This document shows, one piece after another, positions 29,631 to 34,367 of a stretch of DNA of 46,090 nt. Numbering within the stretch: the stretch's first letter is position 1; each line of letters starts with the position of its first letter. The notes beneath the pieces were generated by a model. The model was given only the letters and a program-made list of their open reading frames with translations, did not search any database and was not told the DNA's origin. The stretch spans positions 1-46,090 of the forward strand of contig JAQSWV010000016.1 in NCBI GenBank assembly GCA_029266455.1, in the 5' to 3' direction. Made by a program: the position numbers and the translations under genes. Source of the stretch: Nocardioidaceae bacterium. GTDB taxonomy: Bacteria; Actinomycetota; Actinomycetes; Propionibacteriales; Nocardioidaceae.

Positions 29631-31346
<1,716 letters not shown>

Positions 31347-31400
31347 TCCGACCGACCCGGCACGGCCCTGGAGTTTTCGCAGGGTCGGCTGCGAAACTGA

Positions 31401-31432
31401 CACTGCCCCGGCGCTGCAGCGCCGGGGCAGTG
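31401..31432. terminator. Bidirectional terminator, 32-bp perfect palindrome
   Basis: CACTGCCCCGGCGCTG and its exact reverse complement form an uninterrupted 32-bp palindrome between convergent groEL and terC. The stem is GC-rich; only a short T-rich tail (CTCGTTTC) follows on the plus strand. It can act on both strands. Confidence 0.75.
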
Positions 31433-31493
31433 CTCGTTTCGCTGGGGTAGTGCTCGCCGTGGACACCCCGCCCGACGCGGGGCCGCCGGGTCG

Positions 31494-32504
31494 CTACACC
31501 GGCGAGGACTGCTGGTCCGACCGCTCCTGGCGTCGGCTCGCCACCAGACTGGTGGTGGTGGTGATGACCAGGACGGCCACGATGACACCCAGCGAGAGCA
31601 GGGTGGGGATCTCCGGCACCGACGGCCACTGCATGTGTGCCCAGTGCAGGGCCAGCTTGGCGCCGATGAACCCCAGAATGACCGCCAGCCCGTAGCCCAG
31701 GTGCACGAGCTTGCTCAGTGCGCCTTCCAGCACGAAGTACAGGGCGCGGAGCCCGAGCAGAGCGAAGGCGTTCGTGGCGAAGACCAGGAACGGGTCACCG
31801 GTGATGCCGTACACCGCCGGGACGGAGTCCACCGCGAACACCACGTCGGTGGCCAGGACCGCGACCACGACGAGCGCGAACGGGGTCAGCGCGCGCCGTC
31901 CGCCGATGCGACTCGTCATCCGCGTGCCCTCATAGGTCTCGGTCACCGGCAGGAAGCGGCGAACGAACCGGACGCTCCGGATCTGGTCGACCTCGACGTG
32001 GTGAGCGGCCCCCGTGAGAGCGTCGCGGAGAAGCTTGACGGCCGTGACGACCAGCACCAGCCCGAACACCAGGAACATCCAGTCGAAACGGGTCAGGGCC
32101 GCGGCCCCGAGGGCGATGAAGATGCCGCGCAGGACGAGCGCGCCGACGATCCCGTACAGCAGCACCCGCTGCTGAAGGGCCTTGGGCACGGCGAAGGCGC
32201 CCAGCAGGAGCATGAACACGAACAGGTTGTCGACGCTCAGGGACTTCTCGACCAGGTAGCCGGTGATGTACTCCAGGCCACGCTGGTCACCGAAGCGCTG
32301 CCAGATGTACACACCGAAGGCGAGCGGCAGCGCGACGTAGAAGGCCGACCACCCCACCGCCTCCTTCATCGTCACCTCGTGCGGGCGCCGCGTGAGCAGG
32401 AAGTCGAGCGCCAGGAGCGCGACCACTGCTCCGAGCGTGACGGTCCACAAGGTCGGGGTTCCGACGGAGTCAAGGGCAGGGGGTGCGGCAGCGAGCAAGG
32501 ACAT
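31494..32504 (-). CDS. TerC/Alx-family membrane protein (probable metal exporter)
   Basis: A 336-residue integral membrane protein with about nine hydrophobic segments. The two TerC signatures are present: EKSLSVDNLFVFMLL and ATDVVFAVDSVPAVYGIT, both with conserved acidic residues in membrane segments. Alx and related TerC proteins are linked to Mn2+ export and to metalation of exported enzymes. The upstream yybP-ykoY riboswitch supports Mn2+ as its signal. ATG follows GAGGAG, 5 nt away. It is downstream of the lctP-type gene but separated by the riboswitch. Confidence 0.9.
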   Translation of the reverse strand: MSLLAAAPPALDSVGTPTLWTVTLGAVVALLALDFLLTRRPHEVTMKEAVGWSAFYVALPLAFGVYIWQRFGDQRGLEYITGYLVEKSLSVDNLFVFMLLLGAFAVPKALQQRVLLYGIVGALVLRGIFIALGAAALTRFDWMFLVFGLVLVVTAVKLLRDALTGAAHHVEVDQIRSVRFVRRFLPVTETYEGTRMTSRIGGRRALTPFALVVVAVLATDVVFAVDSVPAVYGITGDPFLVFATNAFALLGLRALYFVLEGALSKLVHLGYGLAVILGFIGAKLALHWAHMQWPSVPEIPTLLSLGVIVAVLVITTTTSLVASRRQERSDQQSSPV

Positions 32505-32510
32505 GTCGTC

Positions 32511-32629
32511 TCCTCAGAGCGGTTCTCCGCGTCTGAGGTCTCCTTCGCCCATCATCGGGCGCCCGCCCGGGGCCGCCATCGGGCGGCCGTAGTGACCGGG
32601 TCGGAACTCGGGAAGTACTCCCCTCAGGG
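32511..32629 (-). ncRNA. yybP-ykoY (Mn2+) riboswitch with SD-sequestering platform
   Basis: On the minus strand the leader has CTGAGGGGAGTA (with the conserved GGGGAGTA of this class, near 32616-32627), CGGTCACTACGG, two internal hairpins (GGCCGCC/GGCGGCC and CGCCC/GGGCG), and GGAGACCTCAG. CTGAGG and CCTCAG form P1. The same CCTCAGA (32532-32538) can instead pair with TCTGAGG (32512-32518), which overlaps the terC Shine-Dalgarno. Metal binding would stabilise P1 and free the ribosome site, i.e. a translational ON switch. Recognition is by motif only. Confidence 0.8.
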
Positions 32630-32648
32630 GCAAGTTTACCCGGCGTGG

Positions 32649-34367
32649 CTACGGCAGCATCCACTCCAGGACGTTGGTCTGGAGCCACACGAGCAGGCAC
32701 ATGACGACGAGCAGCCCGAGGCTCCAGCCGACCACCTTTCGGAAGAGGTCGCCCTCGCGACCGGCCATGCCGACCGCAGCCGCGGCGATGGCGAGGTTCT
32801 GCGGCGAGATCATCTTGCCGAGCACGCCACCCGAGGAGTTCGACGCGGCCATCAGCGCCGGGTCGAGGCCGGCACCCTGCGCTGCCGTGACCTGCAGCGC
32901 GCCGAACAGGGAGTTCGCCGACGTGTCCGACCCCGTCACGGCCACCCCCAGCCAGCCGAGAACCGGGGACAGGATCGCGAACGCCTTGCCCGCCTCGGCC
33001 ATCCAGTTGCCGAGCGACGCGGTCTGCCCGGAGTTGTTCATGACGTACGCGAGAGCCAGCACCGCCATCACCGTCACGATCGCGGTCGCGAGCTGGGCCC
33101 AGGTCTTGGCGTACGCCGCCATGGCTCTCGCGGGCGACACGCCGATGACCGGCATCGTGATCAGGCCGGCGATGATCATCAGCGTCCCGGCCGCGCCCAG
33201 CCAGTTGAACGTGAACGGCGGCGGCTCCGCGCCGCTGGCGCTGACCAGGTCGAGGCCCGGCCACGCGAACAGGTAGGTGAACGGCTCTGCTGCCAGCGCA
33301 TCCTTGATCGCCGGGATCTGCACGATGCTGAAGATGATGATGATGATCAGGTACGGCGCGTACGCCTTGAAGACCTCGGCCGGGGCGTCATGCGTGGTGT
33401 CGCCGGCCCCGGTCGTCGTCGCCGTGGTCGTGCCCGCGGCCTGGGTGCCCGAGCCTCCCGGGCTGGTCCTGGACGGGTCGCCCCCCGCGGCCACGTGCTC
33501 GTCACCGCCCTCGGTGTAGTGCTCCGACGGTGACCACACGCGCACCAGCAGGACCGTGGCCAGGGCCCCGGCGAGGGCCGCGACGATGTCGGTGAGCTGC
33601 ACCGAGAAGTACGTGGCCGTCAGCCACTGCGCGATGGCGAACGCCGCCCCGCAGACGATCGCGGGCAGCCACGTCTGCCGGACGCCGCGCACGCCGTCGA
33701 TGATGAAGACCAGGATCAGGGGGACGAACAACGCCAGCACCGGTGTCTGGTGGCCGACCAGGGCACCCAGGTTCTCCACCGAGAAGGCGTCCCGCTGCTC
33801 CTCGGGGACCACCGCCTGGGTGACCGACGCCAGCGTGACGATGGGGATGGCCAGCGCGCCGAACGCGACCGGGGCGGTGTTGGCGACCAGCGCCAGCGTG
33901 GCGGCCTTGAGCGGCTTGAAGCCGAGGGCGATCAGCATGACGCTGCTGATCGCCACCGGTGTGCCGAAGCCGGCCAGCGCCTCGAGCAGCGCGCCGAAGC
34001 AGAAGGCGATGATGATCGCCTGGACCCGCATGTCGTCGCTGATCGTCGCGAACGAGCGCCGCAGCACGTCGAAGTGACCGGTCTCGACGGTGAGGTTGTA
34101 GACCCAGATCGCGTTGATGACGATCCACAGGATCGGGAAGAAGCCGAAGACCGCGCCCCACGAGGCGACCAGGAGGGCCTGGTCGACGGGCATGGAGTAG
34201 GCCGCGATCGCGATCACGATGGACACGCCGAGCGCGGCCAGCCCGGCGATCCAGGCGGCCAGGCGCAGCGCCCCCAGCAGCACGAAGAGAGTGACAAGAG
34301 GTATCGCGGCTATCAGGGCGGTCGCGGTCAGCGAGCCTCCCACTGCGTTGATGTCCGGCTGGAACAT
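32649..34367 (-). CDS. L-lactate/glycolate permease (LctP family)
   Basis: A 572-residue protein with about 12-14 membrane segments, of the LctP/LldP/GlcA family that takes up lactate or glycolate with protons. Family features include FGALLEALAGFGTPVAISSVML and the C-terminal SPQNLAIAAAAVGM. A low-complexity Gly/Thr-rich loop (about 290-325) is an unusual insertion in a cytoplasmic or periplasmic loop. GAGGGGA precedes the ATG. It is last in aceB-glcD-glcE-glcF-permease, 75 nt after glcF, so glycolate is a likely substrate; lactate cannot be excluded. Confidence 0.88.
   Translation of the reverse strand: MFQPDINAVGGSLTATALIAAIPLVTLFVLLGALRLAAWIAGLAALGVSIVIAIAAYSMPVDQALLVASWGAVFGFFPILWIVINAIWVYNLTVETGHFDVLRRSFATISDDMRVQAIIIAFCFGALLEALAGFGTPVAISSVMLIALGFKPLKAATLALVANTAPVAFGALAIPIVTLASVTQAVVPEEQRDAFSVENLGALVGHQTPVLALFVPLILVFIIDGVRGVRQTWLPAIVCGAAFAIAQWLTATYFSVQLTDIVAALAGALATVLLVRVWSPSEHYTEGGDEHVAAGGDPSRTSPGGSGTQAAGTTTATTTGAGDTTHDAPAEVFKAYAPYLIIIIIFSIVQIPAIKDALAAEPFTYLFAWPGLDLVSASGAEPPPFTFNWLGAAGTLMIIAGLITMPVIGVSPARAMAAYAKTWAQLATAIVTVMAVLALAYVMNNSGQTASLGNWMAEAGKAFAILSPVLGWLGVAVTGSDTSANSLFGALQVTAAQGAGLDPALMAASNSSGGVLGKMISPQNLAIAAAAVGMAGREGDLFRKVVGWSLGLLVVMCLLVWLQTNVLEWMLP

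Follow-up and report, generated by a model that had tools for sequence, protein, structure and literature searches.

The stretch of DNA analysed here (the window, 46,090 nucleotides from a Nocardioidaceae bacterium) carries on its minus strand a terC gene (31494–32504) encoding a 336 aa protein that matches the Pfam TerC family (PF03741, 159 bits, E 1.1e-46) and has its nearest named TerC relatives in the Nocardioidaceae. Upstream of terC lies a lactate permease gene (34367–32649), and on its other side, on the opposite strand, a chaperonin gene (29724–31346). From the stop codon of the permease gene to the start of terC there are 144 nt, with a leader that a first-pass annotation had read as a yybP-ykoY Mn2+ riboswitch with terC as the regulated gene. 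All motifs named in that reading fall within this interval, and the yybP-ykoY marks as well as the P1 strands CTGAGG/CCTCAG are present on the minus strand where they had been placed.

A promoter and terminator scan of the locus returned nothing; a candidate promoter of the terC leader came instead from the comparison of leaders, in the form of a −10-like hexamer, TAAACT (32633–32638, minus strand), of the pattern TANNNT. Such a hexamer occurs within −25 to −7 in 30 of 31 window-type leaders (type as defined below, the window included) versus 1 of 31 for a control stretch, and in 7 of 26 second-type leaders versus 0 of 26. Transcription of the terC leader is expected to start near 32627–32625, at the 5′ P1 strand.

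Anatomy and covariation of the predicted aptamer

The predicted alx-type Mn2+ aptamer spans 32533–32627 (minus strand, like all features given below). It is delineated by covariation and by R1, a covariance model that scores it at 91.7 bits with its own leader in the model, and it has no match to the Rfam model RF00080. It opens with the 5′ strand of P1.1, CUGAGG with the conserved core GAGG (32622–32627), followed by L1, GGGGAGUA (32616–32623), the first two letters of which also belong to P1.1, and by the 5′ strand of P1.2, CUUC (32612–32615), which covaries with its 3′ counterpart GAAG (32543–32546). P3 comprises P3.1 (CCCGG, 32596–32600, with CCGGG, 32566–32570), the 7-nt bulge L3, UCACUAC (32589–32595), and P3.2 (GGCCGCC, 32582–32588, with GGCGGCC, 32571–32577), in which six of the seven pairs have changes on both sides. 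The P4 hairpin, GCCC...GGGC, follows at 32547–32560. L3 is placed by sequence and window fold, P3.1 and P4 by fold together with the covariation alignment. On the 3′ side lie GGAGACC (32543–32537) and the 3′ strand of P1.1, CCUCAG (32533–32538), which with A32532 is also the anti-Shine-Dalgarno strand. As in the family plan, L1 stands opposite the 3′ GAGACC, between P1.1 and P1.2. The motifs named at first pass are thus in place, whereas L3, P1.2 (CUUC/GAAG), P3 and P4 had been missed; of the six-pair P1 then proposed, only the four inner pairs GAGG/CCUC are conserved, the outer two being absent from 15 and 16 of the 32 leaders.

The eight letters of L1 are identical in 134 of the 135 distinct R1 matches, a constancy that is partly by construction, since the leaders in R1 had been picked by GGGAGUA; similarly, UCA in L3 is found in 32 of 32 window-type leaders, GUCA having belonged to the selecting pattern. 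A32593 in L3 would be the Mn2+-contacting A, by comparison with UCA41AUUC of the Lactococcus lactis aptamer, in which the A of UCA is described as contacting the ion (PMC6754395). None of 200 shuffles folds as well as the whole leader (z −3.4), the free fold of which contains P3, P4 and the anti-Shine-Dalgarno hairpin but neither P1 nor P1.2. No hairpin occupies the place of P2 in the predicted folds of the window leader and of the Escherichia coli alx leader (the mntP fold has one). On this modelled fold we read the window aptamer as a three-way junction of P1, P3 and P4, in contrast to the four-way junctions (P1–P4) of the crystallised L. lactis and Xanthomonas oryzae aptamers.

Relatives were collected from the TerC orthologues of named genomes (32 loci) and from further relatives by a sequence pattern that required GGGAGUA, GUCA (its end fixed in part) and AGACC in this order. 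This gave 62 distinct leaders, split by locus into 32 of the window type (TerC sharing 68% identity or more with the window's protein) and 30 others (leaders of terC paralogues and that of E. coli alx). Letters demanded by the pattern are constant in these leaders and carry no evidence, which must come from pairing outside those letters. The aptamer is present in 28 of the 32 TerC orthologues (27 by pattern and one, L022, by R1 at 29.8 bits), and in the remaining loci, L007, L009, L012 and L031, neither pattern nor R1 found it.

The 32 window-type aptamers were aligned (alignment A1) and scored against a structure that takes P3 and P4 from the window fold and P1.1 and P1.2 from the family plan, and that therefore leans to the window. 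Paired cells amount to 85.6% of 916 versus 74.1% in shuffles (0 of 500 as high), and the covariation score is 0.350 versus 0.168 in shuffles and at most 0.146 with slid partners. The number of cells with changes on both sides is exceptional (123 versus 43.7), while the number of pairs with such changes (17 of 30) is not, being reached by 19 of 500 shuffles and by the +1 slide. Covariation is clearest in P1.2, where UA is replaced by CG in 10 and 8 of the 32 sequences. Among the four inner pairs of P1.1 two are invariant and one swaps in 4 sequences, and P1 reads AAGG/CCUU in three window-type leaders (L019, L036 and L037). An RNAalifold consensus computed on A1 recovers P1.1, three P1.2 pairs and P3.2, with two pairs (columns 62–63 with 105–106) in place of P3.1 and P4. 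Taken as a whole, the covariation supports the predicted aptamer.

The alternative hairpin over the ribosome-binding site

The putative Shine-Dalgarno sequence of terC, GAGGAG (32510–32515), is separated by 5 nt from the start codon ATG at 32504. Fold energy and covariation point to an alternative hairpin that would hide it (32512–32538), in which CCUCAGA (32538–32532) pairs with UCUGAGG (32518–32512) over GCGG-AGAA-CCGC, with a one-base C bulge before GCGG. The 7-bp stem is the one proposed at first pass; its closing hairpin has four pairs rather than the three of CGG-AGAA-CCG. The 35 nt containing this hairpin fold at −18.4 kcal/mol, and none of 200 shuffles is as stable (z −4.8). The earlier claim that the two structures exclude each other is upheld, CCUC being common to P1 and the anti-Shine-Dalgarno helix, and the latter covaries beyond P1. 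For this comparison the Shine-Dalgarno sequence was placed by its position relative to the start codon, and pairing played no part in the choice. Outside the Shine-Dalgarno letters the helix pairs in 91 of 124 cells in window-type leaders (shuffle mean 61.4, maximum 76 in 2000) and in 94 of 108 cells in second-type leaders (shuffles 78.1, maximum 88). The first four positions (CCUC against GAGG) are near-constant (117 of 124, the same in shuffles) and uninformative. Among the 31 window-type leaders the helix reaches 6 bp or more in 21 and, by the rule used, falls below 4 bp in 4; among the 27 of the second type these counts are 21 and 2. In L019, L036 and L037 the pairing of CCUU with GGAGG is kept by means of a G-U pair. 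From these alignments we conclude that the choice between P1 and the anti-Shine-Dalgarno helix is conserved and that this helix covaries separately from the aptamer. A single leader displays both states readably, and its relatives retain both.

Computed stability favours the anti-Shine-Dalgarno form over one in which P1 is forced, in 30 of 31 window-type and 26 of 27 second-type leaders; this would make the former the default OFF state, as an ON switch requires. For the window the OFF form is favoured by 13.8 kcal/mol, so that either the ligand or the order of folding must overcome a large difference. It also speaks against the simple scheme that in the nearest-neighbour model the Shine-Dalgarno letters of the window are not released by forcing P1 (unpaired at a mean of 0.31 in the free fold and 0.24 with P1 forced), since they then pair with codons 2–3. 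In window-type leaders the median rises slightly upon forcing P1, from 0.30 to 0.35, with a rise in 20 of 31, and more clearly in second-type leaders, from 0.17 to 0.48, with a rise in 25 of 27. The direction ON is predicted from the anatomy, the anti-Shine-Dalgarno strand being the P1 strand.

The hairpin could alternatively be a transcription attenuator, intrinsic or Rho-dependent, that does not act on the ribosome. A hidden ribosome site can leave RNA exposed to Rho. The riboswitch class is described as working at the level of either transcription or translation (PMC6754395). Against attenuation, no U run follows the hairpin, no terminator-like site is found in 31300–32900, and the Shine-Dalgarno region itself, conserved in position, makes up the hairpin's 3′ arm. 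We regard attenuation as quite unlikely and prefer translational control.

Kinship with alx and the reach of RF00080

R1 was built from A1 alone (32 leaders, the window's included). The leader of E. coli alx, a sequence from another phylum and outside the training set, is found by R1 at 41.2 bits (E 6e-8 in 174 kb, 2.7e-9 in 8 kb); the E. coli mntP leader is not. The alx leader shares with that of the window an identical L1, a nearly identical L3 (UCAUUAC versus UCACUAC), the P1.2 and P1 strands, a predicted P3 made of a one-base-bulged stem, a 7-nt bulge and a 7-bp upper stem, and a predicted fold without a hairpin between the P1.2 strand and P3. It also precedes a gene of the TerC family, alx being described as a TerC homologue (PMC13274385). 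Its P4 is longer than the window's, as is the distance separating AGACC from the start codon; in the window the anti-Shine-Dalgarno strand is the 3′ P1 strand itself. The mntP leader also shares L1, but has ACAUACU (a 7-nt bulge) as L3 and an extra hairpin before P3. With the L. lactis and X. oryzae aptamers the window has in common a C-A followed by four residues in L3 and P1.1 as switching helix, and with the L. lactis crystallised aptamer also UCA in L3 (PMC6754395). The regulatory RNAs of Actinomycetota are stated to include yybP-ykoY switches (PMC8164766), and an actinobacterial terC gene with a yybP-ykoY leader is already in print, namely cg2157 of Corynebacterium glutamicum, with a 5′ UTR seen by RNA-seq (PMC3890552). 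That leader differs from the window's, which the present Rfam model does not see, in being listed in that study from Rfam, at 49 bits, and is likened to it here by its published description (PMC3890552).

The first-pass annotation had suggested a covariance search with the family model as a check, counting the lack of a hit against its claim, and a lack of hits is what we found. No Rfam family matches in the window at the gathering score, and RF00080 gives no match in 32300–32900 at E 10; with all of Rfam at E 10, the leader draws only weak matches, all to unrelated families. Nor is the leader matched in an RF00080 search of the whole genome at E 10, the sole match of which (contig C87, position 19994; 25 bits, positions 53–79) we set aside as a chance match that has no GGGGAGUA nearby. 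RF00080 likewise finds nothing at the gathering score in 20 terC loci (19 from relatives and L001, from the window's own genome) and nothing at E 10 in nine of those relatives' loci. As controls served the E. coli alx and mntP leaders, both reported to be Mn-sensing yybP-ykoY riboswitches (PMC9603457). RF00080 does not find the alx leader at E 10 and scores the mntP leader at 41.6 bits, under its 45-bit cut-off. Since the model misses the one and places the other below its cut-off, its failure to match the window leader is weak evidence and no refutation; the gathering cut-off is a detection rule and not a structural feature of the class.

Distribution, target genes and the proposed mechanism

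Of 293 genomes of the order, 176 have an R1 match at E 0.01 and 117 have none; in the class, 206 of 394 genomes are matched at E 0.001, the two samples overlapping. RF00080 matches 26 of the 293 genomes at E 0.01 and none over its cut-off, so that annotation by RF00080 would miss the R1 branch in the order. The searches of these genomes used stricter filters, by which weak matches are lost. For the best weak RF00080 matches the loci of nine relatives were fetched; all score below the Rfam cut-off, all have ACAYACU as L3, and they precede GDT1 (8) or MntP (1) genes. In the seven of these nine genomes with a listed R1 place, this place differs from that of RF00080, and among the matches listed the two models mostly see different sets. 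Alongside the alx-like set, the nine leaders (L155–L163) form another in the same order, which is mntP-like. They share GGGAGUAG, GAGAC and P1-type ends with the window leader and differ in an L3 of the ACACACU/ACAUACU type and in being weakly seen by RF00080.

Downstream genes were identified by tblastn in 132 loci around R1 matches (69 + 63). This sample is non-random: it joins the best-scoring places, the window included, to chosen places that are richer in multi-match genomes, and some loci repeat one place. It contains 138 R1 matches, 135 of them distinct, and in this non-random sample TerC lies downstream of 118 of the 138 within 1500 nt and of 113 within 120 nt. The other 20 include one MntP gene (L140) and one GDT1 gene (L137), both behind leaders with ACANACU as L3, as well as short hydrophobic ORFs, five copies of one unassigned protein, a match at the locus end (L120) and two R1 matches upstream of PGPGW (PF09656) membrane proteins (L191:248–658 and L213:236–565). 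MntP is named by Pfam as a putative manganese efflux pump, and GDT1 proteins export Mn.

These targets bear on what the RNA senses. The E. coli alx riboswitch reporter is described as responding to Mn, and also as rising 3.5-fold at pH 8.5 alone and being highest with Mn and pH 8.5 together (PMC9603457). The alx leader being the closest characterised relative found, the same RNA might in the window's host answer physiologically to alkaline pH, or to pH and Mn2+ jointly. We consider this unlikely, given that the targets of the aptamer include MntP and GDT1 and that L1 and L3 retain the letters expected where Mn would bind; moreover, alkaline pH may itself act through tighter Mn2+ binding. A more distant thought is that a covarying, structured leader has kept its likeness to yybP-ykoY by ancestry and changed its ligand to another metal or a metabolite. 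The ligand is assigned here from sequence and target genes, L3 reads UCANNAC here and UCAACAUACU in the RF00080 consensus, and some genes behind R1 matches are unassigned. Yet UCA in L3 is that of the crystallised L. lactis aptamer (PMC6754395), the bulge is the same as in alx, and MntP and GDT1 are again among the targets, which together render a changed ligand highly unlikely.

We thus hold that the leader is very probably an alx-type yybP-ykoY Mn2+ riboswitch acting as a translational ON switch of terC. The family assignment made at first pass stands on the homology to alx, the letters of L1 and L3 and the target genes, and the design of the switch on the P1-or-anti-Shine-Dalgarno choice kept in relatives and on the covariation of the anti-Shine-Dalgarno helix. 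We propose the following course of events. Transcription would start at or beside the 5′ P1 strand. At low Mn2+, CCUCAGA on the 3′ side of P1 would pair with UCUGAGG in the Shine-Dalgarno region, with the GCGG/CCGC hairpin as a cap, and terC, its Shine-Dalgarno sequence hidden, would be poorly translated. When Mn2+ is plentiful, the ion would bind between L1 (GGGGAGUA) and L3 (UCACUAC) and lock P1 (GAGG/CCUC) and P1.2 during RNA synthesis, a decision that would thus be taken co-transcriptionally. Locked P1 would withdraw the strand that hides the Shine-Dalgarno sequence, and the TerC then made would presumably lower or redistribute Mn2+. In Vibrio parahaemolyticus, MneA and TerC are described as encoded downstream of members of the class and as induced by Mn, with cellular Mn rising upon their loss (PMC13274385), and meeY of Bacillus subtilis is described as a TerC gene with a Mn-responsive riboswitch (PMC10550928).

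Riboswitch class, ligand, gene family and control at translation have all been described before. What is new, within the reach of word searches of the literature, is the size of the branch missed by the present Rfam model and some of its target genes. We give about even chances to the broader, joint reading, in which the leaders form a separate branch of alx type with a three-way junction, missed by Rfam, by which TerC is usually controlled in the class as sampled and which marks further genes of Mn2+ handling. With the same evenly balanced expectation, the genes so marked would be those for small hydrophobic proteins beside or instead of terC, for PGPGW proteins and for a protein of about 280 residues. 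Small hydrophobic proteins are thereby brought into view as possible participants in the handling of Mn2+.

Several further observations were made at these loci. The second terC gene of the window's own genome (contig C113, locus L066) has no R1 match; its leader contains GGGGAGCA and GGUCACACGG, lacks GAGACC, and is possibly a decayed aptamer. In L121, L123, L139, L147 and L073 (plus strand) a family of proteins of 55–93 residues is encoded between aptamer and terC; these have a PSTRRWAPRGNAR-like tail and, on inspection by eye, one hydrophobic stretch, and their leader is in common with a terC paralogue. Very short hydrophobic ORFs directly follow the R1 match in L101 (1371–1478) and L112 (36 aa), and further short ones do so in L168 (1845–1946, 34 aa), L169, L172 and L175, with no TerC within 1500 nt after the ORFs in any of these six loci. 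In the latter four the aptamer stands back to back with another R1 match, 96–139 bases away. R1 matches in L185, L196, L199, L208 and L214 precede proteins alike in their first residues (for example MSKLNRLFD); Pfam gives no match for the two that were read to their full length (278 and 291 aa). Finally, one locus with a terC paralogue also contains a c-di-AMP riboswitch (L055:2639–2810; RF00379, 58.8 bits).
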